Positions 4,011 to 35,541 of a DNA stretch of 41,611 nucleotides are shown one piece after another. The stretch is taken from the NCBI GenBank assembly GCA_947630595.1, contig CANRIG010000024.1, positions 1 to 41,611 on the forward strand, read 5' to 3'. This DNA comes from an uncultured Lachnospiraceae bacterium (GTDB lineage Bacteria > Bacillota > Clostridia > Lachnospirales > Lachnospiraceae). How positions within the stretch are numbered: the stretch's first letter is position 1; each line of letters opens with the position of its first letter. Position numbers and translations under genes: made by a program. The notes beneath the pieces were generated by a model. It saw only the letters and a program-made list of their open reading frames with translations. It was not told where the DNA came from and ran no database searches.

Positions 4011-4061
4011 GAAGCAGCTGTTTTGATTGCCAATTCTGCCGGATTGTTTCGGCTGCCAGAC

Positions 4062-4090
4062 TTGAATTTAAGACTGTTTCGGTGCATAAT
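4062..4090 (+). promoter_or_regulatory. Candidate internal promoter before the second CobU-like gene
   Basis: TTGAAT at 4062-4067 and CATAAT at 4085-4090 have a 17-base spacer. They lie in the 136-base gap between cobS and the next gene. The predicted start point would be about 45 bases before the next coding start. This is a motif match only. Confidence 0.35.
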
Positions 4091-4146
4091 ATCGGTAGCG
4101 CAGTCTATGCGGTATTTGGAACATTTGCAGGGAGGGCTGCATAATT

Positions 4147-4608
4147 ATGAAGCTGATTATCGGCGGCGCGTATCAGGGCAAGCTGGCCTATGCAAAAAAG
4201 AAATTCCAGGCGGAAGACGGCTGGGCGGACGGCCGGACCTGCGACATGGATGCGGTCTGGACCTGCCGGGGCATGGATCATTTTCACGAATATACACGGC
4301 GGTTGCTGGAAACTTTGGACGGCGATGCCGGTTCGCTTTCCAGATCAGCTGCGCTGCCAATTGAGCCGCATCGGTATGCTTTGACCCCGGAGGCGATGGA
4401 ACAGTGGGCCGCGCAGTTTGCGGCGGAGCTTGCGAAACGGAATCCGCAGATTCTGGTGGTTTCCAATGAACTGGGCTGCGGCGTGGTGCCGCTGGACAGG
4501 ACAGACCGGCTCTGGCGCGAGCTGACCGGGCGAATCTGTACCTGCCTTGCGCAGCAGGCGGACGAGGTGGTGCGCGTGACGTGCGGGATCGGCCTGCGGC
4601 TGAAATAA
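4147..4608 (+). CDS. CobU-like protein with altered P-loop
   Basis: This 153-residue protein resembles CobU at its C-terminal end: VVSNELGCGVVPLDRTDRLW, a short RICTCLAQQADEVVRVTCGI segment and the closing GLRLK are typical CobU features. Its N-terminus MKLIIGGAYQGKLAYAKKKF has a P-loop in which the Ser/Thr after GK is Leu. The central region carrying the guanylylated histidine in CobU is not recognisable. It is shorter than CobU and is the second such gene in the cluster. It could be a cobinamide kinase variant, an accessory protein or a decaying paralogue. The start follows GGGAGGG. The family assignment is firm; the function is uncertain. Confidence 0.75.
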   Translation: MKLIIGGAYQGKLAYAKKKFQAEDGWADGRTCDMDAVWTCRGMDHFHEYTRRLLETLDGDAGSLSRSAALPIEPHRYALTPEAMEQWAAQFAAELAKRNPQILVVSNELGCGVVPLDRTDRLWRELTGRICTCLAQQADEVVRVTCGIGLRLK

Positions 4609-4619
4609 AAGGAGCGCTC

Positions 4620-5147
4620 ATGCATTTTCCTCTTTTTGTCGATTTATCGGAGAAAAAAATTCTGGTAGCTGGGGCCGGAACGATCGCTGCGCGCCGGGTA
4701 CGCGTGCTGTGCGGCTTTGCCGGAACGATCACCGTGGTCGCGCCGGAGGTGAGCCAGGAGTTTTCAGCCCTGCTTGCGGAGAAGTCAGGGCCTGCAGCGC
4801 CGCATGACGGCGGGTCTTTTGCGGCGGAAAGCGGTACGCAGCTTGTCCTGCACAGGCGTCCGTTTGTGCCGGAGGATTTGTCCGGCGCGGATCTGGTGCT
4901 GGCGGCGACAAACGACACAGAGCTGAACCGGTGGATTGCGGAGCTTTGCCGGGCGCGGGGGATTCCCGTGAATAACTGCAGCGACCAGGGCATGTGCGAT
5001 TTTCAGTTTCCTTCTATTATAGAAGAAGACGGCGTTGTGATCGGCATCAACGCGTCGGGGAAAAATCACAGCCGGGTGAAAGAGACGCGGCGGCGGCTGG
5101 AACGTGCGCTGAACCGCGGGGACGCGGCAGGAAAATATGGAGATTGA
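4620..5147 (+). CDS. Precorrin-2 dehydrogenase / sirohydrochlorin chelatase (CysG N-terminal type)
   Basis: The 175-residue protein begins MHFPLFVDLSEKKILVAGAG, the NAD-binding Rossmann start of the CysG-N/Met8 family, and continues with ARRVRVLCGFAGTITVVAPE. The block VNNCSDQGMCDFQFPSIIEE and the tail GINASGKNHSRVKETRRRLE are also typical. The enzyme oxidises precorrin-2 to sirohydrochlorin, and family members can also insert metal. I chose the ATG at 4620 because AAGGAG sits 5 bases upstream; an upstream in-frame start would overlap the previous gene. Residues about 45-65 (SALLAEKSGPAAPHDGG...) look like a lineage-specific insertion. It could take part in cobalt insertion, as no CbiK/CbiX is present in the window. 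Confidence 0.9.
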   Translation: MHFPLFVDLSEKKILVAGAGTIAARRVRVLCGFAGTITVVAPEVSQEFSALLAEKSGPAAPHDGGSFAAESGTQLVLHRRPFVPEDLSGADLVLAATNDTELNRWIAELCRARGIPVNNCSDQGMCDFQFPSIIEEDGVVIGINASGKNHSRVKETRRRLERALNRGDAAGKYGD

Positions 5148-5200
5148 AATCCGCTTTAAAGTGACGAATGACGGGCGGACAGGAATATATTATTTTGAAA

Positions 5201-5320
5201 TGGAAGAAAAATATCAAATGCGATATTGCATTTTTATAAATGAAAGAAAAATATCAAATGTGATATTATATTTTTATAAATGAAAGAAAAATATCAAATG
5301 TGATATTTCGTTTTTATAAA
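5201..5320 (+). repeat. Three 40-bp tandem repeats, each with a palindromic dyad
   Basis: Three contiguous units of exactly 40 bases run 5201-5240, 5241-5280 and 5281-5320. Each reads roughly TGAAAGAAAAATATCAAATG followed by TGATATT, a short variable piece and TTTTTATAAA. Within each unit AATATCA-AATG-TGATATT forms a dyad with 7-base arms (5250-5267 and 5290-5307 perfect; 5210-5227 with one change). The array is AT-rich inside GC-rich DNA and ends 20 bases before the cbiB Shine-Dalgarno sequence. An array of operator sites for a dimeric regulator is the most economical reading; the function is inferred. Confidence 0.85.
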
Positions 5321-5351
5321 TTTGGCAGTTTGCAACACGAAGGAGAACGCA

Positions 5352-6335
5352 ATGTGGAACAGATGCATGGGTTCGCTGCTGGCGGTGGTCGTCGGTTTTT
5401 TTGCGGATATGATTTTTGGTGATCCCGACACGGCGCTGCATCCGATCTGCCTGATCGGCAGATTGATTGCGCGGCTGGAGCGCGCGCTGCGCCGGCTGTT
5501 TCCGGCCACGGAGCGCGGGGAGCTCTGCGCCGGCGGCGTGCTGGCTGTGCTGGTGATCCTGATCTCGGCTGGTATTCCGGGATTTCTGCTGTTTGCGGCC
5601 TACCGCCTGTCGTTCTGGCTGGGCGCTGCGGTGGAAGCGGTGATGTGCTTTTTTATTTTTGCCGTGAAATCCCTGAAATCGGAGAGCGCCAATGTGGCCA
5701 GGGCGCTGCGGGAGGAAGGCCTTGAGGCCGGGCGGAGCGCGGTGGCGCGCATCGTGGGCCGTGATACGCAGGCTCTGTCGGAGCGCGGCGTCGTCAAGGC
5801 TGCGGTGGAGACGGTGGCGGAAAATTTTTCCGACGGCGTGTTTGCGCCCATGCTGTACCTGATGCTTGGCGGCGGCACGCTGGGGTTTGCCTACAAGAGC
5901 ATCAACACCATGGACTCGATGATCGGCTACAAAAACGACCGCTACCTGTATTTCGGCAGGTTGGCGGCCCGCCTGGATGATATCGCCAACTACGTGCCGT
6001 CGCGGCTGGCCGCGCTTTTCCTGATTGCGGCGTCGGGGCTGTGCGGGCAGGACGCGCGCGCGGCCTGGAAAATCTGGCGGCGCGACCGCAGAAATCATGC
6101 CAGCCCCAATTCCGCGCAGACCGAGGCGGCGGCGGCCGGGGCTCTGCATGTGCAGCTGGCGGGTGATGCATATTATTTTGGAAAGCTGTATAAAAAGCCG
6201 TTTATCGGCGACGATATCCGGCCCGTGGAGACAGAGGACATCGCCCGTATGAACCGGATGATGGTGACGGCGTCGGCGCTTTCGCTGGCAGTGCTGGTGC
6301 TGGTAAAGCTGCTGCTGTGCGCGCTGCTGCGGTAA
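5352..6335 (+). CDS. cbiB: Adenosylcobinamide-phosphate synthase (CbiB/CobD family)
   Basis: This 327-residue membrane protein attaches aminopropanol (or its phosphate) to cobyric acid. FFADMIFGDPDTALHPICLI is the classic N-terminal CbiB motif. NFSDGVFAPMLYLMLGG, FAYKSINTMDSMIGYKNDRY and RRDRRNHASPNSAQTEAAAA are the conserved cytoplasmic loops. Several hydrophobic helices separate them. The ATG at 5352 is chosen because AAGGAG lies 6 bases upstream; a TTG at 5322 would start inside the repeat tail. It is preceded by the tandem repeat array, which suggests regulation separate from the genes upstream. Confidence 0.96.
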   Translation: MWNRCMGSLLAVVVGFFADMIFGDPDTALHPICLIGRLIARLERALRRLFPATERGELCAGGVLAVLVILISAGIPGFLLFAAYRLSFWLGAAVEAVMCFFIFAVKSLKSESANVARALREEGLEAGRSAVARIVGRDTQALSERGVVKAAVETVAENFSDGVFAPMLYLMLGGGTLGFAYKSINTMDSMIGYKNDRYLYFGRLAARLDDIANYVPSRLAALFLIAASGLCGQDARAAWKIWRRDRRNHASPNSAQTEAAAAGALHVQLAGDAYYFGKLYKKPFIGDDIRPVETEDIARMNRMMVTASALSLAVLVLVKLLLCALLR

Positions 6336-6465
6336 GTTTGTGAATACTGTTTATCATTGCGCTAAATGTGTGGCTGCGGCGCAGTTTACGCATATGGAGA
6401 TGACGGAATGCGGGCGGCCGGCGCATACCGGTGCATAAATTATCTGAATTTGGAAAGGAACCGCT

Positions 6466-7665
6466 ATGCTTCACAAACATGGAGGAGACATCTACGAGGG
6501 CCGGGTGCAGACCGATTTCTCGGCGAATATCAATTTTCGGGGCATGCCGTCGTCCGTGCGGGCGGCGGCGGAGCGGGCGGTAAGCGCTTCGGTTCATTAT
6601 CCCGACCCGGAGTGCCGGGCGCTGCGCGCCGCGCTGGCAAAGCGTGAAAATGCGCTGCTGCTGCAGACGAAACCGGAAAAACGGCTGCGCCCGGACAACG
6701 AGGACGCGGCGAAAAGACCGGCTGCCGGCGGCAGCGAGCCAGCGAAGCCTCAAAATATTGCGGCAACGCAAATCGCCGCGGAACAGATCATCTGCGGGAA
6801 CGGGGCGGCGGAGCTGATGTTTGCGCTGGCGGCGGCGCGAAAGCCGCGGCGGGCGCTGCTGGCTGTGCCTTCCTTTTTTGAATACGAGCAGGCGCTGATG
6901 GCGTTCGGCTGCGGGACGGAGCATTTTGTGCTGTGCAAAGAACGGGATTTTGCGCTGGATGATGCTTTCTTTGCCGCGCTGCAGGGCGAATCCGGCGCGG
7001 CCTGCGACATCGTGGTACTGGGCAATCCGAACAACCCGAACGGCCGGCTGATTGACGCCGCGCTTCTGGAAAAGCTGATCTGCCTGTGCCGGAAGCGGGG
7101 AGTTCTGCTGGTGCTGGATGAGAGCTTTTATGACTTTCTGGACGAGGAGGCCGCGAAGCGGACTTTCTCAGGAGTATGCGAAGTGCAAAGCTGTCCGCAG
7201 CTTTTTATAATGAAGTCGTTCACCAAGATGTACGGCATGCCGGGACTGCGCTTCGGTTACGGCATTTGCAGCGACCGGGGCCTGCTGGAGCGGATGCGTG
7301 AGGTGCTGCAGCCGTGGAATGTGTCGGTTCCGGCGCAGGCGGCCGGATGCGCGGCGGCCGGGGAGCTGGAGTTTGCGCGTGAGACGGCGCGGCAGATTTC
7401 GGCAAACCGCAGGCAGCTGTGGCAGCGGATGGAGGAGGCCGGTTACCGGGTGTTTCACTCGGACGCCAATTTTCTGCTGTTTGAGGGGCCGGAGGGCCTG
7501 CAGGAATACTGCCGGTCGCGCGGCTTCTTGATTCGGGACTGCAGCAATTATCCGGGACTGCAAAAAGGCTTCTTCCGCGTCTGCGTGCGCGGCGAACAGG
7601 AGAACGCGGCGCTGATGCAGGCGCTGCGGGACGCGCGAAAGAGCCTGCAGGAAATCAAGTGCTGA
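6466..7665 (+). CDS. cobD: L-threonine-O-3-phosphate decarboxylase
   Basis: This 399-residue fold-type I PLP enzyme makes (R)-1-amino-2-propanol phosphate for the CbiB step. HGGDIYEG at the N-terminus is diagnostic of CobD. The PLP lysine is K254 in [18 protein letters not shown], with LGNPNNPNG and VLDESFYDF upstream. It is longer than usual (about 360) because residues about 62-104 form a K/P/A-rich insertion between [11 protein letters not shown] and [13 protein letters not shown]. Compare similar insertions in CbiD and CobK here. GGAAAGGAACC lies before the ATG. The 130-base upstream gap shows no clear promoter. Confidence 0.95.
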
Positions 7666-7684
7666 AAACTGGGAGGTATCTGGC

Positions 7685-9193
7685 ATGGCAAAGGCAATCA
7701 TGGTGCAGGGGACGATGTCGAACGTCGGCAAGAGCGTGATCGCGGCCGGCCTGTGCCGGATTTTCCGGCAGGACGGCTTCCGGGTGGCGCCGTTTAAATC
7801 GCAGAATATGGCGCTTAACTCATTCATCACGCGGGAGGGGCTGGAGATGGGCCGGGCCCAGGTGATGCAGGCGGAGGCGGCCGGGGTGGAACCGTCGGTG
7901 GCGATGAATCCGATTCTGCTCAAGCCCACCAACGACGTCGGCTCGCAGGTGATCGTGAACGGCGAGGTGCGGGGGACGATGAGCGCCCGCGATTATTTCC
8001 GGATGAAAAAATCGCTGGTTCCCGAGATCATGGCGGCTTACCGCAGGCTGGAGGAAGCGTTTGACATCATCGTCATCGAGGGAGCGGGCAGTCCGGCGGA
8101 GATCAATCTGAAACAGGACGACATTGTCAATATGGGCATGGCAAAGCTGGCGCACGCGCCGGTGCTGCTGGTCGGCGACATCGACCGGGGCGGCGTTTTT
8201 GCCCAGCTTTACGGCACGGTGGCACTTCTGGAGGAGGAAGAAAAAAGGCTGATCAAGGGCCTGATTATCAATAAATTCCGGGGAGACAAGACGATTCTCG
8301 ACCCGGGCGTGGAGATGCTGGAGCAGCTGACGGGCCTGCCGGTGATCGGTGTGACGCCGTACCTGCACGTGAGCCTGGAGGATGAGGACAGCTTAAGCGA
8401 GCGCCTGGAGGGGACGCAGAAGGTGGATTTGATCGACATCGCGGTGATCCGCCTGCCGCGCATCTCTAATTTTACGGATTTTAACGTGTTTGAGGGCATG
8501 GAAGGCGTTTCCCTGCGCTACGTGTCGGCGGCGCATCAGCTTGGCCGTCCTGATCTGATGATCCTTCCGGGCACCAAAAATACCATGCGGGATTTGCTGT
8601 GGATGCGGCAGAACGGGCTGGAAGCGGCGATTTTGAAGGCTCACCGGGCCGGAAGCGTAGTCTTCGGCGTCTGTGGCGGTTATCAGATGCTTGGAAACAG
8701 CATTTCCGACCCGGACGGCGTCGAGGAAGGCGGTTCTATCCGCGGAATGGGCCTGCTGGACGCGGATACGGTTTTTGAGGCGGAGAAAGCGCGCACCCGG
8801 GCGGAAGGTCACATATTAAATCCCAGGGGTATTTTAAAGCCGCTCGCCGGTGCGGCGGTGACGGGCTATGAGATTCACATGGGCCGGACTGTGGTGCACG
8901 GGGACGTGCAGCCGCTGACGGAAATCACGGACATCATCACCGGGGAGCGGAAGCAGGAGGGCGCCTGCGGCGAGCGCGTGTACGGCTCCTACCTGCACGG
9001 TATTTTTGACAGCCGGGAAATTGTGTCCGGCGTTGTGCGGGCGCTGGCGGAGGAAAAGGGAATTTCCGGCGAAATGGAGATGACCGTGGACTTTGCCGCG
9101 TTTAAGGAGACGCAGTACGATCTGCTGGCGGCCGGCCTGCGGGAGCATCTGGATATGAAGCGGATTTACCGGGTGTTGGAGGAAGGCGCGTGA
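7685..9193 (+). CDS. cbiP: Cobyric acid synthase (CbiP/CobQ)
   Basis: This 502-residue glutamine-dependent amidotransferase amidates side chains b, d, e and g of the corrin. The ATP-binding start is [20 protein letters not shown]. Family motifs [26 protein letters not shown] and [15 protein letters not shown] follow. The class I glutaminase domain has nucleophile C330 in [12 protein letters not shown] and a later His in [11 protein letters not shown]. Length is typical. It begins 19 bases after cobD with GGGAGG upstream, so the two are likely co-transcribed. Confidence 0.97.
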
Positions 9194-9217
9194 CCTTTTT
9201 GCGGTGGGATGTGGTGT

Positions 9218-9306
9218 AATATGCGGTGAAAAATGCAGCAGGGTATTATCGGAGTATAGAGAACCATGTGATGTGCAGTTGGAATATGGCAGAAAATGCA
9301 GCGGGA
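9218..9306 (+). repeat. Weak direct repeat in cbiP-cbiC gap
   Basis: The 160-base gap between cbiP and cbiC contains two similar stretches, starting at 9218 (AATATGCGGTGAAAAATGCA) and 9283 (AATATGGCAGAAAATGCAGC). They share AATATG and AAAATGCAGC with small offsets. It may be a decayed duplication. No promoter or terminator is obvious here. Confidence 0.3.
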
Positions 9307-9353
9307 AATAAGCGTGTGCTGTGCGGATTTGAAAGAAAAGTGAGGGGACCAGG

Positions 9354-10016
9354 ATGAACGAGAAGACAAATGTGACTCTGGCAGATATTGAGCGGCTGGG
9401 GCCGATGGACATCGAGCGGCGCAGCTTTGAACTGATTTCAGAGGAAGCGGCCGGGCGGATTCCGGAGGATGAGCGGGCGATGATCATCAAACGCGTGATT
9501 CACACGTCGGCGGATTTTGATTATATTGACAATCTCTGTTTTTCGGAGCGGGCGGTCAGCCGCGCGCAGGAAGCGCTGCGCGGCGGGGCATGGATTGTGA
9601 CGGACACGACGATGGCCCTTTCCGGAATCAATAAGAGAAGTCTGGCGTTGACCGGAGCGGAGGCGCGCTGCTTTATCGGCGATGAGGATGTGGCGCAGGA
9701 GGCAAAGCGACTTGGCGTCACCAGAGCCTCCGTCTGTGTGGACAAGGCGGCGCGTCTCGGCAGGCCGCTGATCTACGCGGTCGGAAATGCGCCGACGGCG
9801 CTGATCCGGCTGTATGAGCTGATTCAGGCGGGCAGCTTCCGGCCGGAGCTGGTCATCGGCGTGCCGGTCGGTTTTGTCAATGTGGTGCAGTCCAAGGAGC
9901 TGATTATGCAGACCGATGTGCCTTACATTGTAGCGCGCGGGCGAAAGGGCGGCAGCAATGTGGCGGCGGCCATCTGCAACGCGCTGCTGTATCAGCTCGA
10001 CGGCAGCAGGGCGTGA
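9354..10016 (+). CDS. cbiC: Cobalt-precorrin-8 methylmutase
   Basis: This 220-residue protein moves the methyl group from C11 to C12 to give cobyrinic acid. The catalytic histidine fits H50 in KRVIHTSADFDYIDNL. GGAWIVTDTTMALSGINKR and the C-terminal VGFVNVVQSKELIM and RGRKGGSNVAAAICNALLY are family hallmarks. Length is typical. AGGGGACC lies 6 bases before the ATG. The stop is 13 bases upstream of the cobC-cbiD fusion. Confidence 0.96.
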   Translation: MNEKTNVTLADIERLGPMDIERRSFELISEEAAGRIPEDERAMIIKRVIHTSADFDYIDNLCFSERAVSRAQEALRGGAWIVTDTTMALSGINKRSLALTGAEARCFIGDEDVAQEAKRLGVTRASVCVDKAARLGRPLIYAVGNAPTALIRLYELIQAGSFRPELVIGVPVGFVNVVQSKELIMQTDVPYIVARGRKGGSNVAAAICNALLYQLDGSRA

Positions 10017-14755: not shown

Positions 14756-16372
14756 GTGAGTATCAGGGTAATGATTGCGGACGATGAGGAAAAGGTATGC
14801 CAGCTGATTGCGCACTTGGCAGACTGGAAAAGTCTCGACATGGAGCTGGTGGAGATCGCGCACAGCGGCATAGAGGCGATGGAGGTGATTCGCAAATGGC
14901 GTCCGGACATCGTGATTACCGATATCCGGATGCCGGGATACAGCGGCCTTGATCTGATCAGAGAGGCAAAAGAGCTTTTGCCGCAGATAGAATTTATCAT
15001 TATCAGCGGCTACCGCCATTTTGAATACGCGCAGACGGCGCTTCGCTTTGGCGTAAAGGACTATCTGCTTAAACCGATCCGCAAAGACGAACTGAATGCG
15101 GCCCTGAACCGTATGCGGGGCGCGTATATGGAACGCAACAAACGCCTGTCCCAGGAAGAAATGTTCCGCATTACACTGCAGAATAATCTGGACCGCCTGC
15201 GGACAGGACTTTTTTTGGATATCCTGCTCCGGCGCAGGAGCGTCAGGAATCTGCTGGATATAGAAAGGATAAACAGGCAGTATCATTATCAGTTCCGGCC
15301 CGGCTGCTTTCAGATCGTTATGTTGAAAATAGACGGTGTGAGTCCGAAAAGCGTGGTGAGCCAGGAGTTTTTGCAGAAAAAAGTGCTGGCGGCCTTTAAC
15401 AGCCGGATTCGTGAATACTGCTTTGATTCGGAGATATGTCTTGAGGGCTATACCTGTTATGCCGTTTTGAATTACTCTGAAAAAAATTATAAAACAGTGC
15501 GCCGCGTACTGAAACAGATTCTGGATTATCTGCTCATCCAGAACGATATATTTGAGCGCCTGCAGGTGACGGTTGGCTGCGGCAGCGTGGAGCGTGATAT
15601 CAATAGGATCCGCGAATCCCTGAGGGCAGCGGCGCTGGCTGCGGAGGAGCGAATCCTGAAAGGGACGAACCGGGTGCTCGAGTATGAGAAGGGCGGGGAA
15701 TCTTCTTTCGCTGAAAGCAGTGCGTTTTTTGAATTTAATCAGCAGATGAAAAACGCGGTGGAAAATCTGGATGAACAGGGTGTACTGGCGTCGATTGACG
15801 GACTGCGGGAAAAAATGACGGCCGACGCGGGAAACAGAGGCCATGATATCCTGCAGATGGCCAAGGAAGTCCTGAATGTGTATCTGTTTGCTTCAAAAGA
15901 AAATAAGTATCCGCTGCGCATGGAGGAAAATTTTTTTGAAGACTATGCCTTTGCGATTGACAACATGAGCAGTGTCAGTGAGATATTTGCTTATGTGAAA
16001 CAGGTGATTGGCGGGTCCTTCCGCGAACTGATCCGCGCAAAGCTCCTGGAAGACAACCGTCCCGTCCGCATGGCAAAGCAATTTATCAAAGAAAAGTACG
16101 GTTCCCCCATCACGCTGGAAACGGTCAGCGACCAGGTCGGGCTTAACGCAGCATATTTCAGCACGCTGTTTAAAAAGGAAACGGGGCTGACTTTCACGGA
16201 GCATCTGCTCAGGACGAGGATCGAGGCCGCGAAAGATATGCTGAAAGACACCAATCTGAGCGTGGCGGCAATCTGCGAAAAGGTAGGCTACAGCGACAAC
16301 AAGCATTTTTCAAAGACTTTTATGCGGGAAACAGGACTGAGACCAAACCAGTACAGAAAACTGTATTCCTGA
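14756..16372 (+). CDS. YesN-type response regulator with AraC DNA-binding domain
   Basis: The 538-residue protein has an N-terminal receiver domain (about 1-120) with acidic D9/D10, phospho-acceptor D56 in DIVITDIRMPG, and LLKPIRKDEL. A long middle region (about 130-430) follows. The C-terminal AraC-type double helix-turn-helix (about 435-538) includes AKQFIKEKYGSPITLETVSD and GYSDNKHFSKTFMRETG. A GTG start at 14756 is supported by GGGAGG 6 bases upstream and by MSIRVMIADDEE as a normal receiver beginning. It is paired with the kinase 10 bases downstream and probably controls the transporter genes that follow. Confidence 0.93.
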   Translation: MSIRVMIADDEEKVCQLIAHLADWKSLDMELVEIAHSGIEAMEVIRKWRPDIVITDIRMPGYSGLDLIREAKELLPQIEFIIISGYRHFEYAQTALRFGVKDYLLKPIRKDELNAALNRMRGAYMERNKRLSQEEMFRITLQNNLDRLRTGLFLDILLRRRSVRNLLDIERINRQYHYQFRPGCFQIVMLKIDGVSPKSVVSQEFLQKKVLAAFNSRIREYCFDSEICLEGYTCYAVLNYSEKNYKTVRRVLKQILDYLLIQNDIFERLQVTVGCGSVERDINRIRESLRAAALAAEERILKGTNRVLEYEKGGESSFAESSAFFEFNQQMKNAVENLDEQGVLASIDGLREKMTADAGNRGHDILQMAKEVLNVYLFASKENKYPLRMEENFFEDYAFAIDNMSSVSEIFAYVKQVIGGSFRELIRAKLLEDNRPVRMAKQFIKEKYGSPITLETVSDQVGLNAAYFSTLFKKETGLTFTEHLLRTRIEAAKDMLKDTNLSVAAICEKVGYSDNKHFSKTFMRETGLRPNQYRKLYS

Positions 16373-16382: not shown

Positions 16383-17480
16383 ATGAAACGTAAGATTTAT
16401 CTTTCTGAACGAATAAAGTATGCGGTTTTTTTTCTGTGGGCGTCTGCCGGAGTCCTGCCGGTTTTCTGCGTGATTCTGGCGAAGGAAAATGAAACGCTGC
16501 GCTGGCTGGCGGCAGCGGCGGCGGTGTTTCTGACGGCGTGGACCTGTCTGGTCTGGCGGATGATCACATGGCCTTATCTGAAGCTGCAAAAGCTATACCG
16601 TCTTTACGCGGACGGATATTATCTGGAAAAGATGACCGGCTATGAGGTGCAGATAGACCGCTGCGTGGAGCGCGTCCAGGAGCAGATGACGGCCCGCTTT
16701 GACCGGGGAAGACTGCTGTCTCTTTCCAAAAGGCAGGCGGAGTATCTGGCGCTGCAGAATCAGATCAATCCCCATTTTCTTTACAATACGCTGGAAGGCA
16801 TACGGAGTGAGGCGATCCTGGCTGGGATGGACAGCGTCGCGGAAATGACGGAGGCGCTCGGAACATTTTTCCGCTATACGATTTCCAGGATGGATCATCT
16901 GGTGACGCTGGAAGACGAGCTGGCGAATATCGAGAATTATTATTTCATTCAGCAGTATCGCTTTGGCGAGCGTCTCAGCCTGTCGATTGAGTATGAAGAC
17001 GGGGATATCGAAGCGCTCGAATGTATGATTCCCAAGCTGACGCTGCAGCCGATTGTGGAGAACGCTGTTTATCATGGACTGGAAGAAAAGGTGGGAAAGG
17101 GACAGCTGACGATTCGGATTGCGCTGACAGAGAGGTATCTGTCCATCACGGTTTCGGACAACGGCGTGGGAATGGATGCGGAAAAGCTCAGGGAGCTGAA
17201 CCGCAGACTGAGCATGAGCCCGCTGGAGGAGGAGCAGGCGGCTGCGGAAAGGCGCGAGGGGATTGCGATTGTCAATGTAAACAACCGCATCCGGCTGCTT
17301 TTTGGGGAGGAGTACGGACTTTATTTTTACAGTACGCCCGACGTTGGAACGGACGTGGAGATCACTCTGCCGATTCGTAAAGGCAGAGACGCGAAGCCCG
17401 GGGAACTGCCGCAGACGGACGGGCGAAGGGACGGACATGAAAGAAGAAATTCTGGGTATGGATCATGTGACGACGGATGA
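16383..17480 (+). CDS. YesM-type sensor histidine kinase with minimal extracellular loop
   Basis: The 365-residue protein has two membrane helices (about 12-33 and 40-63) joined by only about 7 residues, so there is no extracytoplasmic sensor domain. Most YesM kinases have a large one. A cytoplasmic linker leads to the HisKA_7TM-type dimerisation region with phospho-acceptor H131 in NQINPHFLYNTLEGI. The ATPase motifs LQPIVENAVYHGLE (N box) and VSDNGVGM (G1) follow. The last 30 residues are hydrophilic and overlap the next gene by 44 bases. With no sensor domain of its own, it may take its signal from a membrane partner, perhaps the transporter or the ATPase-like protein encoded next. Confidence 0.93.
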   Translation: MKRKIYLSERIKYAVFFLWASAGVLPVFCVILAKENETLRWLAAAAAVFLTAWTCLVWRMITWPYLKLQKLYRLYADGYYLEKMTGYEVQIDRCVERVQEQMTARFDRGRLLSLSKRQAEYLALQNQINPHFLYNTLEGIRSEAILAGMDSVAEMTEALGTFFRYTISRMDHLVTLEDELANIENYYFIQQYRFGERLSLSIEYEDGDIEALECMIPKLTLQPIVENAVYHGLEEKVGKGQLTIRIALTERYLSITVSDNGVGMDAEKLRELNRRLSMSPLEEEQAAAERREGIAIVNVNNRIRLLFGEEYGLYFYSTPDVGTDVEITLPIRKGRDAKPGELPQTDGRRDGHERRNSGYGSCDDG

Positions 17481-18939
17481 TCCGGAGCTGACGAATCTTG
17501 ATAATATGACGCTGCATATTTTCAAAGGCGAGATTACCGGCCTGCTGCCTGTGAACGAGCAGGGAAGAAAAAAACTGCTTGAAGTGATGTGCCGCAATGT
17601 CCCGCTTCACTATGGAAGAGTTTATATTGGCGGCAGGCTCGTCAACAGCCATCTGAAAAGCGACCGCGCTTCAAACCGCGTTTGCGTGATTTCCGGGAAA
17701 AACCGCCTGGTGCGCGACCTGACGGTATGCGATAATCTTTTTGTTCTGCGGCGCGGGTTCCGCCAGTATGTGCTGGATCGGTGGATTCTCTGCCAGCAGG
17801 CGGAGCGCTTTCTGCGTCAGAGCGGACTGGAAATTGCCCCGGATATGATGGCGGATCAGGCGAATGAGCTGGAGCGGGTCGTTATCGAACTGGTGAGAGC
17901 GATTGTACAGCGCGCGGATCTGATTATATTTGACGAGATCAGTTCGTTTCTGAGCGTGCAGGATGTTTTGCGTCTGCATGAGATGATGCGTTTTTATGTG
18001 AAAGAGGGCTTCTCTTTTTTGTATCTGGGAAATCATCACGAAGATGTGATTTCCTTCTGCGACCGTGTTCTGGTCATGAAGAACGGGTACATCATAAAGG
18101 TGCTCCGGGATAAAGATATGACGGACAGAGAGATTCTGCAGATCGCCGGCTCGGAAGAATATCCGGAATTATATATGCAGCTTGAGCGCATGGCGCCTCT
18201 GAAACAGGCGAAAAGCGCATCCGGCGCTCAGGGACCGCCGGCTCTGGAATTCAGGAACGTCAGCAATAACCATCTGCGGCATCTGAGTTTTCAGGTACGG
18301 CCGGGAGAGTGCGTCGTGCTGCTGGACCGGGGAATGCTTCCGGCAGGGGAGACGCTTAGCCTTCTGAAAGGGCAAAACGATGCCTGGGAGGGAGAGATAA
18401 TCTGTGACGGAAAAGTGCTTACAAATAAGAAAAAATTCCGGCTGCCGTGCGAGTCGGCTGCAGTAATTGAGGAATATGCGCATACCTCGATGATTTTTCC
18501 GCATATGACGTTTCTGGAGAATCTCTGTATCATGGCGGACCGGAAGCTCAGCAGCGTTTTGCTGCGGAAAAGGATCATGAAAAGCGTGCGCAGGGAGTAC
18601 GCGGATGTATTCGGAGACGACATCGACGCGACGGATATGCGCAGCGTTTCCAGGGAGAACAAATACGCGCTGGTGTATTACCGTTATGCCATGCTGCGCC
18701 CGAAAGTGCTGTTTTGCGTGCGGCCTTTTACCGGCGCCGATATGTATCTGAGACGTCATATTCTGACGCTGATTCAGAAACTGAAACAGAGAGGCATTGC
18801 GGTGGTCATTCTGACCACGGCCCTGGCGGATTCGCATTTTGCGGCGGACCGGCTGCTGATACTTGATAAAGGAGAACTGGTATGCGAACTTCACCGGGAT
18901 GATTTCAAATCCGCATGGAATACGTTGTTTAAAATCTAA
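17437..18939 (+). CDS. Degenerate double-domain sugar ABC ATPase paralogue, predicted ATPase-dead
   Basis: This 500-residue protein has the length and two-domain plan of RbsA/MglA-type ATPases but has lost the catalytic motifs. In domain 1 the Walker A position reads LLPVNEQGRKKLLEV instead of GENGAGKST, and the signature position is QANELERVVIEL. Walker B LIIFDEISSFLS is kept, and the H-loop reads YLGNHHED. In domain 2 (from about residue 270) Walker A is LDRGMLPAGET, the signature is VSRENKYALV and Walker B is VLFCVRPFTGAD, with no Asp-Glu. The frame is open and the structural skeleton kept, so it looks selected rather than decayed. The ATG at 17437 overlaps the kinase gene. A regulatory subunit linking transporter state to the kinase is inferred. 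Confidence 0.85.
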   Translation: MKEEILGMDHVTTDDPELTNLDNMTLHIFKGEITGLLPVNEQGRKKLLEVMCRNVPLHYGRVYIGGRLVNSHLKSDRASNRVCVISGKNRLVRDLTVCDNLFVLRRGFRQYVLDRWILCQQAERFLRQSGLEIAPDMMADQANELERVVIELVRAIVQRADLIIFDEISSFLSVQDVLRLHEMMRFYVKEGFSFLYLGNHHEDVISFCDRVLVMKNGYIIKVLRDKDMTDREILQIAGSEEYPELYMQLERMAPLKQAKSASGAQGPPALEFRNVSNNHLRHLSFQVRPGECVVLLDRGMLPAGETLSLLKGQNDAWEGEIICDGKVLTNKKKFRLPCESAAVIEEYAHTSMIFPHMTFLENLCIMADRKLSSVLLRKRIMKSVRREYADVFGDDIDATDMRSVSRENKYALVYYRYAMLRPKVLFCVRPFTGADMYLRRHILTLIQKLKQRGIAVVILTTALADSHFAADRLLILDKGELVCELHRDDFKSAWNTLFKI

Positions 18940-18965: not shown

Positions 18966-19005
18966 CACCCCTGTTTTTCGCCGGACAGGGGTGTTATATT
19001 TTTTC
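18966..19005 (+). terminator. Rho-independent terminator
   Basis: CACCCCTGT (18966-18974) and ACAGGGGTG (18985-18993) form a perfect 9-bp stem with a 10-base loop, followed by a T-rich tail. It ends the regulator-kinase-pseudo-ATPase unit and separates it from the transporter genes. No strong promoter motif was seen between here and 19072, so partial read-through is possible. Confidence 0.85.
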
Positions 19006-19071: not shown

Positions 19072-20571
19072 ATGGAAGAATATATTGTAGAGTTAAAAAA
19101 TATAACGAAAGCTTTCCCGGGAGTGCTTGCGCTTGACAAGGTACAGTTCAATCTGAAAAGCGGAGAGGTGATGGCGCTGCTCGGCGAGAACGGGGCGGGA
19201 AAATCCACTCTGATGAAAATTCTCAGCGGCGTATATTCCAGAGACGCCGGGGAAATGAAAATTTTTGGCCGGGAGGTCGGCGAAATGACGCCCAGGCTTG
19301 CGCAGGAGATGGGAGTGGCGATCATCCATCAGGAGCTCAATATGTGCCGGCACCTGACCGTGGCCCAGAATATGTATCTGGGACGGGAGATTATGAGGGC
19401 GGGACAGGTAAACAACCGGACGATGAACGAGGGCGCGCGGGAGATTCTCGGCGAGCTGAATATCGATCTGGATCCGGAGACGGTGGTCGGAGACCTGCCT
19501 GTGTCAAAGCAGCAGATGGTTGAGATTGCCAAGGCGCTTTCCACGAATGCAAAAATACTGATTATGGATGAGCCGACTTCGGCGCTGACGGCGAAAGAGA
19601 TCGACGATCTTTTTGCGATCATCCGCAAACTGCGGGAGGACGGAAAAGGAATTGTCTATATCTCTCACCGGCTGGAGGAACTGCAGCATATTGTAGACCG
19701 CGTGACCATCATGAGGGACGGGAAATACATATTGACCGGAGATTTTCGTGACCTGACGATGGAAGAAATCATCGCCGGTATGGTTGGCCGTGAGATTAAG
19801 GAAAAGTTTCCGCGTGTCAGCTGCAAAAAGGGCGAAAAAATCCTGGAGGTCAGGCATCTGAATGCCGGCAGGATGGTCCGGGATATCAGTTTTGAGCTGT
19901 ACGAGGGTGAAATTGTCGGTTTTGCCGGGCTGATGGGCGCAGGAAGGACGGAGACGACCAGAGCGATTTTCGGTGCGGATCCGAAAGATTCCGGAGAGAT
20001 TGTTCTGGAAGGAAAAACGCTGAAAATTTCCTGCCCGGAGGATGCAATCAAAGCAGGCATCGTGCTGGCCCCGGAGGACCGGAAGAAAGACGGGCTGTGC
20101 ACCAAGCTCAGCGTGCGCGACAATATTGCGCTTCCAAACCTGGATATTTTGTGTGACAGGCTGGGAGTTGTGAACCGAAACCGGGAGAAAGAAATGGTCA
20201 GCAGAACGGTCAGAGATCTGATGATCCGGCTTCCGGGCGATCAGGTAGACGCGGGCACGCTTTCCGGAGGCAATCAGCAGAAGGTGGTGGTCGGAAAGTG
20301 GCTGGCGAGAAATTCCAGGGTCGTCATCTTTGACGAGCCGACCAGGGGAATCGATGTGGCCGCCAAGGTGGAGATTTATCACCTGATGAATCAGCTCAAG
20401 GCGCGGGGGATTGGAGTGATGTTCGTATCTTCTGAGATGCCGGAGATCATGGGGATCAGCGACCGGATTATCGTGATGTGCGACGGCCGGATCACAGGCG
20501 AACTTTGCCGGGAGGACGCGACGCAGGATCAGATTCTTACTTATGCGACGCGGTTTGAAAAGAAAGTGTGA
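19072..20571 (+). CDS. Sugar ABC transporter ATP-binding protein (RbsA/MglA-like)
   Basis: The 499-residue protein has two nucleotide-binding domains. Domain 1 carries LLGENGAGKSTLMKIL, the signature-like LPVSKQQMVEIAKAL, Walker B ILIMDEPTSALT and YISHRLEE. Domain 2 has the usual variant Walker A GLMGAGRTETTR, LSGGNQQKVVVGKWLA and VVIFDEPTRGID. This is the intact counterpart of the degenerate paralogue encoded just upstream. It energises uptake with the permease and binding protein that follow. The substrate cannot be read from the sequence; a pentose or hexose is typical. GGAGAGGGAAAGGG lies before the ATG. Confidence 0.95.
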   Translation: MEEYIVELKNITKAFPGVLALDKVQFNLKSGEVMALLGENGAGKSTLMKILSGVYSRDAGEMKIFGREVGEMTPRLAQEMGVAIIHQELNMCRHLTVAQNMYLGREIMRAGQVNNRTMNEGAREILGELNIDLDPETVVGDLPVSKQQMVEIAKALSTNAKILIMDEPTSALTAKEIDDLFAIIRKLREDGKGIVYISHRLEELQHIVDRVTIMRDGKYILTGDFRDLTMEEIIAGMVGREIKEKFPRVSCKKGEKILEVRHLNAGRMVRDISFELYEGEIVGFAGLMGAGRTETTRAIFGADPKDSGEIVLEGKTLKISCPEDAIKAGIVLAPEDRKKDGLCTKLSVRDNIALPNLDILCDRLGVVNRNREKEMVSRTVRDLMIRLPGDQVDAGTLSGGNQQKVVVGKWLARNSRVVIFDEPTRGIDVAAKVEIYHLMNQLKARGIGVMFVSSEMPEIMGISDRIIVMCDGRITGELCREDATQDQILTYATRFEKKV

Positions 20572-20610
20572 AAAGAAAATGCGGGATAAAAGGATCGGAG
20601 GGAATGAATC

Positions 20611-21612
20611 GTGGAAAAGGAAAAGCAAAACGTGCTGAAAAGAATCATGATGATTCGCGGCATGGGACAGGTTGTGACCGTCACGGCCGGCCTGGTGGTG
20701 CTGTGCATTGTATTCGGAATTATAAACCCCAACTTTTTCTCGGGGCGCAATGTCGGTAATCTGCTGCGGCAGATTGCGCCGATTCTGATCGTCGGCATCG
20801 GCCAGTCCTACGTGGTGATTACGGCGAACATTGATCTGTCCATCGGTTCTGTGATGGGTATGAGCTGCATGATTTCGGCCACGCTTATGACGCGGGGCAT
20901 GAACCCCTGGCCGGCGGTGCTGATTACGGTCGTGATCTGCATCGTGACCGGAGTGCTGAACGGCTTTCTGGTCGCCCAGTGCAAGCTTCCGCCTTTTATC
21001 GCGACGCTGGGCACCATGACCGTCACGCGCGGCATTGCCCAGTTTGTCAATGGAAATTACAATACGGACGCGATCGGGGAGAAGGCGGAGGGATTCCGTC
21101 AATTCTTCTATTATGGAAAAACATTCGGATTTTTCAATACGGTATGGATTGCGGTGATTCTGTTCCTGCTGTTCAACTTTGTGCTCTCAAGAACGAGAAC
21201 CGGCCGTCATATTTATGCGGTTGGAAGCAATATTGAGGCGGCGAAGCTTTCCGGCGTTAATGTGGTAATCATAACGATCAAGGTGTATGTAGCGGCGGCG
21301 TTCTGCGCCTGCGCAGCCGGTCTGATCACCTGCGCGACCGCAGGAATGGGCACTATGGATGCAGGCACCAGCTATGAGATGTACGCTGTGGCGGCTTCCG
21401 TGATCGGCGGTGTGTCGCCGCTCGGCGGACAGGGCCTTCTGCTCGGAACGGTAATCGGCGCGGCCATCTGGGGAGTTCTGCAGAACGGCCTTCAGTTCGT
21501 AGGAGCGCCGGTGGCAATTCGTAATATCGTGGTCGGCGTCATTGTAATCGTATCAGTGCTGCTCGACGTTCTCATCCGCTCGAACGCGCCGAGAAAGAGG
21601 AAGGCAAAGTAA
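20611..21612 (+). CDS. Sugar ABC transporter permease (RbsC-like)
   Basis: This 333-residue hydrophobic protein belongs to the branched-chain amino acid/ribose permease family. NPNFFSGRNVGNLLRQIAPI, ITANIDLSIGSVMGMSCMIS and GRHIYAVGSNIEAAKLSGVN are typical RbsC-family blocks, with about 8-10 membrane helices. The GTG start at 20611 has GGAGGG about 8 bases upstream. It lies 39 bases after the ATPase gene and 53 before the binding protein, the usual ATPase-permease order of such operons. Confidence 0.94.
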   Translation: MEKEKQNVLKRIMMIRGMGQVVTVTAGLVVLCIVFGIINPNFFSGRNVGNLLRQIAPILIVGIGQSYVVITANIDLSIGSVMGMSCMISATLMTRGMNPWPAVLITVVICIVTGVLNGFLVAQCKLPPFIATLGTMTVTRGIAQFVNGNYNTDAIGEKAEGFRQFFYYGKTFGFFNTVWIAVILFLLFNFVLSRTRTGRHIYAVGSNIEAAKLSGVNVVIITIKVYVAAAFCACAAGLITCATAGMGTMDAGTSYEMYAVAASVIGGVSPLGGQGLLLGTVIGAAIWGVLQNGLQFVGAPVAIRNIVVGVIVIVSVLLDVLIRSNAPRKRKAK

Positions 21613-21665
21613 AAATTAAAGCGAACAGGCTTTAATGATAAAAATTTTTTAAGGAGGTTTCTGCT

Positions 21666-22601
21666 ATGAAACGTAAATTAATGACAGCATTATTGACCGC
21701 AACGATGGCAATCAGCCTTTTATCCGGGACGACCGCTGCGGCGGAGGAGCTCAAGGTGATACTGATTACCATGGACAGCGTTGATCAGCATTGGGTTTCG
21801 GTTGACGCAGGCGCAAAGAAAGCCGCGGAGGAACTTGGCGGAGTAGACTATCAGTGGATGGCGCCGGATAAGAAAGACGACGCGCAGCAGATCGAGCGCG
21901 TAAACAATGCGATTTCGGCGGGTGCGGATGCGATTATGATCGCGGCGAACGGCCCGGATGCGGTGACGGCGGCACTTCAGGAAGCCGTGGATGAAGGCAT
22001 CAAAATCGTGTACGTTGACTCTCCGGCAAATCTGGAAGCTGAGGCGACCTTCTCAACGGACAATGAAGCGGCCGGAAAGACTGCCGGCGAGGAAATGATC
22101 AAAGAGCTGAACGCGCAGGGAATTACAGACGGCAAGATCGGTATTGTGAATGTAAATGCGTCTACCGATACGGCGATCAAGCGTGAGGCCGGTTTCCGTG
22201 CAGCGTTTGAGGGAACGGATTTTGAAATTCTGGAAACCCAGTACGGCGAGGGCGATGTAGTGAAATCCCAGGATATCGCGGATAACTATATCACAGAAGG
22301 CTGCGTAGGCATTTACGGCACGAATGAAGGCGGCACGACGGGCGTCGGCAATGCCGTCAAGGGTAACGGCGGCGGAGTCGTCGGCGTTGGCTTTGATAAA
22401 TCGGATGCGATTCTGTCTCTGGTGAAGGACGGTTCGCTTCTCTGCGTGATGGCCCAGAATCCTGACGTCATGGGTTATGAAGGAATGAAAGCGGCAGTTG
22501 CGGCAGTGAAAGGCGAGGAAATTCCGGAGAAAAGCGTAGATACGGGCGTATCTGTACTGAATGCGGAGTATCTGGCGGAAATGGAGACGGAAGCCGGGTA
22601 A
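21666..22601 (+). CDS. Sugar-binding protein (RbsB-like, periplasmic-binding protein type 1)
   Basis: The 311-residue protein has an N-terminal signal sequence (MKRKLMTALLTATMAISLLS) and a probable cleavage after TTAAA near residue 26. There is no lipobox cysteine, which is unusual for a solute-binding protein of a single-membrane Firmicute. The mature part matches the RbsB fold: ITMDSVDQHWVSVDAGAKKA, AGADAIMIAANGPDAV, FSTDNEAAGKTAGEEM and VGVGFDKSDAILSLVKDG. AAGGAGG precedes the ATG, consistent with high expression. It is the recognition subunit for the ATPase and permease upstream. Confidence 0.93.
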   Translation: MKRKLMTALLTATMAISLLSGTTAAAEELKVILITMDSVDQHWVSVDAGAKKAAEELGGVDYQWMAPDKKDDAQQIERVNNAISAGADAIMIAANGPDAVTAALQEAVDEGIKIVYVDSPANLEAEATFSTDNEAAGKTAGEEMIKELNAQGITDGKIGIVNVNASTDTAIKREAGFRAAFEGTDFEILETQYGEGDVVKSQDIADNYITEGCVGIYGTNEGGTTGVGNAVKGNGGGVVGVGFDKSDAILSLVKDGSLLCVMAQNPDVMGYEGMKAAVAAVKGEEIPEKSVDTGVSVLNAEYLAEMETEAG

Positions 22602-30454: not shown

Positions 30455-31492
30455 ATGGAACAGGGAAAGCGAATGGGAATCGCGGCTTTTACTGGGCGGG
30501 GCAACCGGCTGGCGGATGCGCTGGCGCTGGCGTTCGCCGGAGAGTATGAATGCCTGCGCTACAGGAAGGGGCTGCATGACTGGTGCCGCACATGCTTTGA
30601 GCAGGCGGACGCCGTCGTTTTTATCGGCGCCTGCGGAATTGCCGTGCGCACGATTGCTCCTTTCCTGAAAAGCAAGACGACGGACCCGGCGGTGCTGGTA
30701 CTGGATGAAGCAGGACAATATGTGATCTCTTTGCTCTCAGGGCATCTCGGCGGAGCCAATGAGCTGGCGCTTGCGGTTGCCCGGAAGATCGGGGCGACGC
30801 CGGTGATTACGACGGCCTCGGATGTCAACGGCACGATCGCGGTGGATGTGTTTGCCAAAAAGAATCATCTGCAGATCGGTTCGATGCTGCAGGCGAAGCG
30901 GATCGCGGCGGCGCTGCTGCGGCGGGAGCGCGTGGGATTTTTCTGCAGCGGAGCGGTCGAGGGCGCGATTCCGCCGGAGCTGACGCAGGGAAAGGCGCAG
31001 CATCTGATCTGGGTTTCAGAGAGAGCGCCGGACGCCAGCCGGACTGCGCGTTTGCTGGAGCACCCGGACGGGACGGTGCTGCACCTGATTCCGCGCTGCG
31101 TCGTGCTCGGCGTCGGATGCCGGAAAGGGAAATCCGCCCCGGAAATCCGGGAGGTCGCGGACGAACTTTTGCGGAAATCGCAGGTCTCCCAGCAGGCCCT
31201 GTGCAGGGCAGCTTCCATTGATTTGAAAAAAGACGAGGCGGGACTTTTGGAGTGCTGCCGTGCTTATGGTGTGGAACTGAATACTTATACAGCGGAAGAA
31301 CTTCTGCAGGCGGCCGGCACGTTTGCCGGTTCGGAATTTGTGCGGCAGACCACGGGCGTCGACAATGTGTGTGAGCGCGCGGCTTTGCTGGCGGCCGGGC
31401 CGGGCGGGCGGCTGATTGCGGGAAAATATGCGAAAAACGGTGTGACTGCGGCGCTTGCGGTGCAGGATTGGAGGGTACGTTTTGAAGAATAA
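30455..31492 (+). CDS. cbiG: Cobalt-precorrin-5A hydrolase
   Basis: The 345-residue protein opens the delta-lactone of cobalt-precorrin-5A and releases acetaldehyde. VFIGACGIAVRTIAPFLKSK and ISLLSGHLGGANELA are hallmark CbiG sequences. CVVLGVGCRKGKS starts the C-terminal domain, which ends with NVCERAALLAAGPGGRLIAG. Length is typical. GGGAG precedes the ATG. Its end overlaps the cbiH start by 11 bases. Confidence 0.95.
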   Translation: MEQGKRMGIAAFTGRGNRLADALALAFAGEYECLRYRKGLHDWCRTCFEQADAVVFIGACGIAVRTIAPFLKSKTTDPAVLVLDEAGQYVISLLSGHLGGANELALAVARKIGATPVITTASDVNGTIAVDVFAKKNHLQIGSMLQAKRIAAALLRRERVGFFCSGAVEGAIPPELTQGKAQHLIWVSERAPDASRTARLLEHPDGTVLHLIPRCVVLGVGCRKGKSAPEIREVADELLRKSQVSQQALCRAASIDLKKDEAGLLECCRAYGVELNTYTAEELLQAAGTFAGSEFVRQTTGVDNVCERAALLAAGPGGRLIAGKYAKNGVTAALAVQDWRVRFEE

Positions 31493-32213
31493 ACTGTATG
31501 TGATCGGAATGGGGCCGGGCGGGCCGGAGCTGATGAGCCGGAAGGCCGACCGGCTGCTGGGCGGGTGCGACACGATCATCGGCTATACGGTCTATGTCGA
31601 CCTGCTGCGGGAACGGTACCCGGGGAAAGAATTTCTGACGACGCCGATGACGCAGGAAGCGAAGCGCTGCGAGATGGCGTTTGCGGAGGCACAGAAGGGC
31701 AAATGCGTGGCCATGGTCTGCAGCGGAGACGCGGGCGTGTACGGCATGAGCGGACTGATGCTGGAGATCGGCGCTGCCTTTCCGGAGATTGAGGTGGAGG
31801 TGGTGCCGGGCATCACGGCGGCTCTGAGCGGAGGCGCGGTGCTGGGCGCACCGCTGACCCATGACTTTGCCGTGATCAGTCTGAGCGACCGGTTGACCCC
31901 CTGGGAGAAAATCGAAAAGCGGCTGCGGGCCGCGGCGGAAGCGGATTTTTCGATCTGCATCTACAACCCGGCCAGCAAAGGACGGCCGGATTATCTGAAG
32001 CGCGCCTGCGGGATTCTGCTGGAGACGTTGCCGCCGGAGCGGGTCTGCGGCACGGTGGAAAACATCGGGCGCGAGGGCGAATCGTCCAGGCTGTACACGC
32101 TCGCGGAGCTTAAGGACGCGCAGGTTAATATGTTTACGACCGTGTTTATCGGCAATTCCATGACGCGGGAGATCGGCGGCCGGATGGTGACGCCGAGAGG
32201 TTATCGGATATGA
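31482..32213 (+). CDS. cbiH: Cobalt-precorrin-3 C17-methyltransferase
   Basis: The 243-residue protein begins KLYVIGMGPGGPELMSRKAD. VCSGDAGVYGMSGLMLEIG, VVPGITAALSGGAVLGAPL and AVISLSDRLTPWEKIEKRL are diagnostic for CbiH/CobJ. It methylates C17 and drives ring contraction. A TTG start at 31482 is preferred because GGAGGG sits 6 bases upstream, inside the cbiG end. Another in-frame TTG at 31455 would add nine unlikely residues. The stop overlaps the next gene by 4 bases. Confidence 0.94.
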   Translation: MKNKLYVIGMGPGGPELMSRKADRLLGGCDTIIGYTVYVDLLRERYPGKEFLTTPMTQEAKRCEMAFAEAQKGKCVAMVCSGDAGVYGMSGLMLEIGAAFPEIEVEVVPGITAALSGGAVLGAPLTHDFAVISLSDRLTPWEKIEKRLRAAAEADFSICIYNPASKGRPDYLKRACGILLETLPPERVCGTVENIGREGESSRLYTLAELKDAQVNMFTTVFIGNSMTREIGGRMVTPRGYRI

Positions 32214-35523: not shown

Positions 35524-35541
35524 CGGATGGAGGCCTGCGGT

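Follow-up and report, generated by a model that had tools for sequence, protein, structure and literature searches.

How does a histidine kinase without a sensor domain receive its signal, and what role is left to a transport ATPase that has lost its ATP site? These questions are raised by a locus in a 41,611-nucleotide stretch of DNA from an uncultured Lachnospiraceae bacterium (contig CANRIG010000024.1 of assembly GCA_947630595.1; hereafter the window), in which a YesM-type kinase gene overlaps a gene for an RbsA-like tandem ATP-binding cassette (ABC) protein lacking a consensus ATP site (hereafter dABC). Judged from its sequences, dABC is a maintained family across Lachnospiraceae and beyond and not a product of decay, and its partnership with sensorless YesM kinases is well supported. 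We consider it somewhat probable that dABC is a pseudo-ATPase adaptor, which would couple an RbsC-type permease and, with it, a sugar-binding protein to the kinase in a non-transporting sugar receptor; the status of dABC as a dedicated third component of the YesM/YesN two-component system is part of this proposal and is held with the same modest confidence. The genes and motifs of the locus are as follows.

14756..16372, + strand: YesN-type response regulator (receiver plus AraC-type helix-turn-helix), GTG start; Pfam Response_reg 1.6e-22, HTH_18 4.3e-22
16383..17480, + strand: sensorless YesM-type histidine kinase, 365 residues; His_kinase 1.3e-25, HATPase_c 8.6e-12
16413..16571, + strand: membrane hairpin of the kinase (residues 11-63), from a Kyte-Doolittle scan and alignment
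17437..17480, + strand: overlap of the kinase and dABC genes, 44 bases, from the open reading frame coordinates
17437..18939, + strand: dABC, RbsA-like tandem ABC protein of 500 residues without a consensus ATP site
17545..17574, + strand: erased Walker A of domain 1 (residues 37-46), from motif comparison
17698..17766, + strand: segment behind the Q-loop of domain 1 (residues 88-110), presumed permease-docking face, from conservation excess
18472..18540, + strand: segment behind the Q-loop of domain 2 (residues 346-368), presumed docking face, from conservation excess
18643..18669, + strand: erased signature of domain 2 (residues 403-411), start of the family motif KY-LVY-R
18712..18744, + strand: erased Walker B of domain 2 (residues 426-436), with the family motif C-[IV]-[QR]-P-F instead
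18966..18993, + strand: terminator-like hairpin separating the signalling from the transporter genes
19072..20571, + strand: intact RbsA (ATPase of a CUT2 sugar importer); ABC_tran 1.9e-49 in two stretches, RbsA model 7.6e-177
20611..21612, + strand: RbsC-type permease, 333 residues; BPD_transp_2 8.3e-42
21666..22601, + strand: RbsB-type sugar-binding protein; Peripla_BP_4 3.2e-48

The first-pass annotation of this DNA had described a YesM kinase gene overlapping a 500-residue RbsA-like gene by 44 bases and an intact RbsABC transporter downstream; the gene coordinates (16383-17480 and 17437-18939) and the domain matches of all three transporter proteins (19072-22601) bear this out. Translation of the YesM and dABC genes is likely to be coupled through the overlap.

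The ATP site of dABC

The window dABC gave a single match to Pfam ABC_tran (2.9e-13), as compared to two matched stretches at 1.9e-49 for the intact RbsA next door. NCBIfam models of the XylG/AraG/RbsA type matched dABC over nearly its full length with scores far below their cut-offs. An AlphaFold model showed a tandem ABC fold (predicted local distance difference test, pLDDT, 80.5; predicted template modelling score, pTM, 0.74), for which the best Foldseek match was chain D of the DppABCD importer (TM 0.68). By both sequence matches and predicted fold, dABC thus has the tandem ABC architecture of about 500 residues that is typical of RbsA, and the consensus ATP site is absent. In the window protein, GENGAGKST is replaced by PVNEQGRKK, LSGGNQQK by VSRENKYA and IFDEPTRGID by FCVRPFTGAD; the Asp-Glu of the domain 1 Walker B is still present (FDEISS).

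The loss of both Walker A motifs and both LSGG signatures had initially been taken as specific to dABC. The Walker A, LSGG and domain 2 Walker B motifs are indeed erased, but half of these losses are ordinary for RbsA, and the claim of specificity was rejected in that form. All 57 RbsA proteins from the same loci have an abnormal domain 1 signature and an Arg for Lys in the domain 2 Walker A, and the available text of PMC11466899 gives the same degenerate domain 1 signature and Walker A Arg for Bacillus subtilis RbsA. The domain 2 Walker B is also missing in three ordinary paralogues (L033, L037 and L040) from the window's own genome. As RbsA is normally degenerate at one site, the meaningful loss in dABC is that of the single consensus site, formed by the Walker A of domain 1 and the LSGG of domain 2. 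A strict form of either motif was found in 0/72 distinct dABC sequences, whilst both were present in 57/57 RbsA proteins. The former motif columns now carry new common residues, for example a Tyr in the domain 2 signature (60/72) and a Gln in place of the Walker B Glu (57/72). On these grounds, dABC presumably does not bind ATP. No further dead copies were found among 13 other full-length RbsA-like proteins fetched from the window's own genome, all of which keep Walker A and LSGG; a partial frame of 333 residues (L030) could not be judged and further weak ABC matches lay outside the 13.

Conservation of dABC and its pairing with sensorless kinases

With the window protein as query, matches at E<=1e-40 were obtained in 9 of 60 genomes (the window's own included), all from the window's genus; besides the window's copy, this search returned nine others with 34-62% identity. 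A profile was built from ten dABC sequences and applied with a cut-off of E<=1e-70, the ordinary RbsA paralogues of the window's own genome reaching 1.5e-64 at best. Counting that genome each time, the profile detected dABC in 29/397 genomes of the family, 7/295 of the order, 8/245 of the class and 4/299 of the phylum; these counts are lower bounds because scoring stopped at the 3-6 best candidates of a genome, and the samples drawn at different ranks overlap. The pair of a short-loop YesM and dABC recurs in Lachnospiraceae. A scan of named genomes gave 28 loci, including Blautia glucerasea, Hespellia stercorisuis, Parablautia and two Candidatus Choladousia species. Removal of exact duplicates from 82 matches left the 72 distinct sequences; many members of this set, and of a wider one with 115 kinase-linked ABC proteins, are near relatives, so that the sequences are distinct and not independent.

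Pairwise Nei-Gojobori ratios of nonsynonymous to synonymous substitution rates (dN/dS) were approximately 0.04-0.19 for dABC (pairs with at least 62% identity and finite dS, dS being saturated in more distant pairs), similar for YesM and YesN, and 0.02-0.07 for RbsA. The suggestion that dABC is a decaying RbsA duplicate carried beside the kinase would account for the motif losses, and for those alone; it is rejected by the 72 distinct open frames, this purifying selection and the new conserved motifs, together with the grouping of the family in one old clade, and we give it practically no weight. The earlier argument against simple decay, drawn from the intact frame and length, is strengthened by these data and by the absence of an intact site from all 72 copies.

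A quick tree was made from 59 kinase-linked ABC proteins and 26 of 27 RbsA representatives; its branches are long, and the deep order within the kinase-linked clade is unsure. One branch split the kinase-linked proteins from RbsA with a Shimodaira-Hasegawa-like approximate likelihood ratio test (SH-aLRT) support of 99. Branching next to RbsA were the kinase-linked proteins of L266, which has an intact consensus site, and L267, which is half-intact and accompanied by the sensor-bearing kinase. The nucleotide-blind clade that includes the window sits deep inside the kinase-linked clade. In the set of 115, a strict domain 1 Walker A was kept by 12 proteins and a domain 2 LSGG by one, whilst Asp-Glu was found in the domain 1 Walker B of 21 and in the domain 2 Walker B of none. 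The tree and the positions of L266 and L267 fit a history in which a kinase recruited a functional ATPase once and the ability to use ATP was lost afterwards.

The window kinase has the His_kinase and HATPase_c domains and the NPHF motif of PF06580 YesM/LytS kinases. Its two hydrophobic segments (approximately residues 11-36 and 38-63) lie ahead of the NPHF motif, leaving no room for an extracellular domain. Directly upstream of dABC, a YesM gene was found in 70/72 loci, and YesN was second upstream in 68 of these 70, the missing two in both cases lying at contig edges. In 67/70 kinases a hydrophobic hairpin stood ahead of the histidine motif, the latest start of which was residue 193; of the other three, L026 is a fragment at a contig edge, L084 has a broken frame and L116 has a short N-terminus in the called frame. 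In the wider set, YesN-YesM was directly upstream in 107/115. The other eight comprised three in which YesM is upstream but YesN lies beyond the visible stretch, two at contig edges and three (L270, L271 and L276) in which YesN and YesM stand elsewhere in the gene run of dABC. The linkage of this ABC gene to a kinase gene, noticed at first in the window alone, is therefore a conserved one.

The converse search, from kinase to ABC gene, gave a concordant picture. A sensorless-kinase profile produced 66 matches in 39/250 genomes of the family. An RbsA-like ABC gene was directly downstream of 62 of these kinases, fused to one and directly before YesN for another; for the remaining two (L270 and L276) it was four genes upstream. 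As this profile was built from dABC-linked kinases, the search was repeated with Pfam PF06580 in 31 genomes. Among the listed frames, all ten short YesM kinases (below 440 residues; nine with a hairpin and one without any hydrophobic stretch) had an ABC gene beside YesN-YesM, as compared to 0/28 sensor-bearing YesM kinases with a downstream ABC gene (at least 285 bases downstream being in view for each, and at least 300 bases upstream for 22). Other listed frames below 440 residues were three cut by contig edges (G077) and two multi-helix proteins with no ABC gene (L264 and L265). The window kinase was the sole sensorless YesM of four in its own genome.

The two multi-helix proteins (L264 3222-4463 and L265 3270-4550) are YesM-like kinases with at least four hydrophobic segments and no ABC neighbour, and are another kind of kinase without an ordinary sensor domain. 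Additionally, half-size degenerate ABC proteins of approximately 250 residues were seen at L270 (1608-2372) and L271 (10276-11031), where the order is ABC followed by YesN-YesM.

The fused match (L268 8918-10768) is a single 616-residue frame that joins a sensorless YesM to one degenerate ABC domain, in a genome (G236) assembled in 2 contigs and 99% complete. The fused ABC domain scored 98 bits with the dABC profile versus 31 with an RbsA profile, and gave no match to the Pfam ABC_tran model. Folded alone, it was predicted to form an ABC cassette (pLDDT 82, pTM 0.81) whose best PDB matches were ABC ATPases. The fused gene lies next to a short YesN gene, with RbsA-RbsC-RbsB upstream. One ABC domain per chain would amount to two per kinase dimer, which would match one tandem dABC per dimer.

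The permease and the proposed receptor

Among 67 loci that show 6.5 kilobases on either side of dABC, 60 have a strong RbsA, an RbsC and an RbsB within seven genes of it. In six loci, an RbsC-type permease gene accompanies dABC and not RbsA. At L273 and L275 this is a second RbsC in addition to the transporter's own, and at L274, L095, L270 and L276 an RbsA-type transport gene was not seen in the stretch read, L270 lying near a contig start. The kinases of L270 and L276 have no hydrophobic stretch before the histidine motif, so that the permease is the obvious transmembrane part there.

In ABC importers, permeases are contacted by the segments behind the Q-loops. The two corresponding segments of dABC, picked after the conservation table had been seen, were conserved above 99% of random segment pairs when measured relative to RbsA. 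Co-divergence was examined by partial correlations of distance matrices for 65 loci in which all six proteins were readable. Values of 0.58 for YesN-YesM, 0.35 for YesM-dABC (bootstrap 0.18-0.48), 0.30 for dABC-RbsC (bootstrap 0.01-0.42) and 0.60 for RbsC-RbsB were obtained, and those of YesM with RbsA, RbsC and RbsB were 0.01-0.03. The partial correlations form a chain, YesN-YesM-dABC-RbsC-RbsB.

A mechanism can be proposed on this basis. dABC would retain the tandem ABC shape by which RbsA sits beneath an RbsC dimer, and would link the permease, and thus the sugar-loaded RbsB-type protein outside, to the cytosolic side of the sensorless kinase. External sugar would alter the permease-dABC complex, and dABC would relay this change to YesM; YesM would then phosphorylate YesN, which would turn on the sugar importer and catabolic genes. 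We infer the physical docking of dABC to permease and kinase, the nature of the signal and the genes regulated from the patterns described here. The proposal would explain how sensorless YesM kinases of gut Clostridia obtain a signal, i.e. by borrowing transporter parts through an apparently inactive ATPase. If it is true, sugar sensing requires a binding protein, a permease and this ATPase paralogue, but no ATP hydrolysis by the latter.

Several results weigh against this arrangement, mainly at the contact between dABC and the permease. The dABC-RbsC correlation fell to 0.18-0.26 after dereplication. In 44 window-like loci it was approximately 0, with a YesM-RbsC correlation of 0.27-0.38, and the kinase may therefore touch the permease directly there. 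The coupling loop of the six dedicated RbsC proteins was no better kept than the rest (36/48 versus 123/174, p 0.59), and the largest conservation excess of dABC was at residues 408-436 (windows starting at 408-414), outside the docking segments. The window contains a single RbsC, which dABC would have to share with RbsA unless it binds the kinase alone, and a full RbsABC within seven genes was missing from 7/67 well-flanked loci. One of the 66 profile-matched kinases (L223, 565 residues) bears a sensor and has a half-intact ABC partner. The domain 1 Walker B Asp-Glu was retained in 16/72 dABC proteins, the window's included; with the Walker A of 12/115, this makes weak nucleotide binding possible in some members. 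The first-pass proposal that the ATPase paralogue docks to the permease or the kinase consequently fares differently for its two halves: the fusion and co-divergence argue for the kinase, whilst the putative contact with the permease is favoured indirectly by the dedicated RbsC genes and disfavoured by the coupling loop and the window-like loci.

The main alternative is an arrangement in which dABC is a regulatory domain of YesM that senses a cytosolic ligand (a sugar phosphate or other compound) in a remodelled pocket, the permease being merely regulated. The YesM-dABC correlation was 0.35-0.51 in every subset tried, and this link alone was robust throughout; a natural fusion joins a dABC-type domain to the kinase, new conserved residues occupy the former ATP-site columns and a minority of loci lack RbsABC. 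This arrangement sits poorly with RbsC genes that overlap or adjoin dABC or share its run without RbsA, two of them beside helix-less kinases, with the conservation of the presumed docking segments and with the proximity of RbsABC in most loci. We judge it unlikely, if deserving of attention.

The kinase hairpin could, by a different route, contact the working RbsABC in the bilayer and sense its cycling, dABC being a stabiliser or brake of the kinase. A two-helix, short-loop kinase resembles BceS, whose helices contact BceB according to the available text of PMC10314905, and the YesM-RbsC correlation of window-like loci points the same way. Over the 65 loci that correlation was approximately 0, however, and the loci in which no RbsA-type gene was seen (L095, L270, L274 and L276) would offer no cycling transporter to sense; direct sensing of this kind appears improbable. 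Less probable by far is a transport brake, in which dABC displaces RbsA from RbsC and shuts down uptake (inducer exclusion), dosage being the sole reason for its co-transcription with the kinase. The RbsA-like predicted shape, the lack of a consensus ATP site and the overlap with the YesM gene would suit such a role; the association with sensorless kinases, the kinase fusion and the loci without RbsA do not.

If dABC does couple permease to kinase, the family may further record the conversion of an importer into a receptor. A permease dimer and an ATP-blind paralogue of its motor would form the sugar-sensing transmembrane part of the kinase, with some lineages having their own permease gene and a helix-less kinase, and the series from L266 through Walker-A-only proteins to nucleotide-blind ones would trace the change from motor to adaptor. 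We offer this evolutionary series tentatively, with rather more doubt than the coupling itself.

Related systems and genomic surroundings

SUR1 and SUR2 are eukaryotic ABC proteins that regulate another machine instead of transporting; they bind nucleotide and gate a K+ channel. Among bacterial systems, Bce modules likewise tie a two-helix kinase without a sensor domain (BceS) to an ABC transporter, and a BceS dimer complexes with BceAB, as given in the accessible part of PMC10314905. Two helices, a short loop and no sensor domain were shared by 67/70 of the kinases studied here. Unlike in Bce modules, a YesM-type kinase (PF06580) is combined with an AraC-type regulator and an RbsABC-like sugar importer. 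The neighbouring permease is a BPD_transp_2 protein of 333 residues, RbsC-type and not BceB-type (ten helices and a large extracellular domain). The constant partner here is an ATPase paralogue encoded apart from the transporter's own and devoid of a consensus site; an intact RbsA is usually near (60/67 loci) and was not seen at L095, L270, L274 and L276.

In CuaDSR and XylFII-LytS, a kinase uses an ABC-type solute-binding protein as sugar co-sensor (PMC10384115, available text). That co-sensor lies outside the cell on a large ectodomain of the kinase (in CuaS between helices 30-49 and 316-339, according to the same text), whereas the partner described here is cytosolic and the kinase offers no room for a large extracytoplasmic domain. 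RbsB is usually near the kinase, but as a member of the transporter cluster. The ordinary RbsA of CUT2 importers shares with dABC the tandem ABC organisation of approximately 500 residues and homology over nearly the full length; according to the accessible text of PMC11466899, one of its sites is already degenerate and a single RbsA works with two RbsC. In dABC the remaining consensus site is erased too and the gene is kinase-linked. Transceptors, and the S-component fold shared by energy-coupling factor (ECF) transporters and 5TMR kinases, provide a further case of related transporter and receptor parts in which the receptor is a sensor kinase; there a membrane fold is shared, whereas here a cytosolic motor subunit would be reused (PMC11109136, available text).

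A dedicated ATPase paralogue of this kind was found neither in these nearest systems nor in the accessible parts of a review of alternative ABC roles (PMC7828314). No description of a kinase-linked dead RbsA was recognised in the open-licence PMC literature, which was screened mostly by title and abstract, subscription papers and preprints lying outside this scope. Within transporter-coupled two-component signalling, the dABC module looks like an undescribed signalling module.

Several observations concern the genes around dABC. RbsB-type proteins of 611-635 residues stand beside dABC at L071 (12441-14348) and L109 (10959-12860); each has two Peripla_BP_4 stretches and is a tandem double sugar-binding protein. 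RbsB-type proteins of similar length were seen at L072, L073, L079, L087 and L107. A D-lyxose isomerase gene lies near the dABC module of L083 (2218-2904; PF07385, 1.8e-99), and open reading frames resembling it by sequence occur at L020, L021, L079 and L082, giving five loci of which one is Pfam-confirmed; this is a hint towards the sensed sugar. At L086, L026, L097 and L098, dABC stands beside a different RbsA subfamily (46-48% identity to the window's) and open reading frames that we take to resemble dihydroxyacetone-kinase subunits; with both features, the module seems to serve several sugars.

The hairpin at 18966-18993, between dABC and RbsA, is a strong inverted repeat (CACCCCTG...CAGGGGTG) preceded at a short distance by a C-rich stretch behind the dABC stop codon. 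It is kept in 5/5 loci of the genus that share the window's gene order and may be a terminator or a regulatory element, its appearance being terminator-like. As regards the substrate of the window transporter, nanE, a gene for a ROK-family protein and one for a NanA-like lyase lie close by. Among the annotated loci of the 72-sequence set, NanE or NanA was found in the window only, and ROK proteins were found in 15 others. Cobalamin-type biosynthesis genes flank the sugar region at 297-10016 (ALAD, CobS, CbiA/CobQ-like and CbiC) and at 30455-36948 (CbiG, CbiE/CbiT and CobQ-like), and the sugar region looks to have been inserted into a corrinoid cluster.

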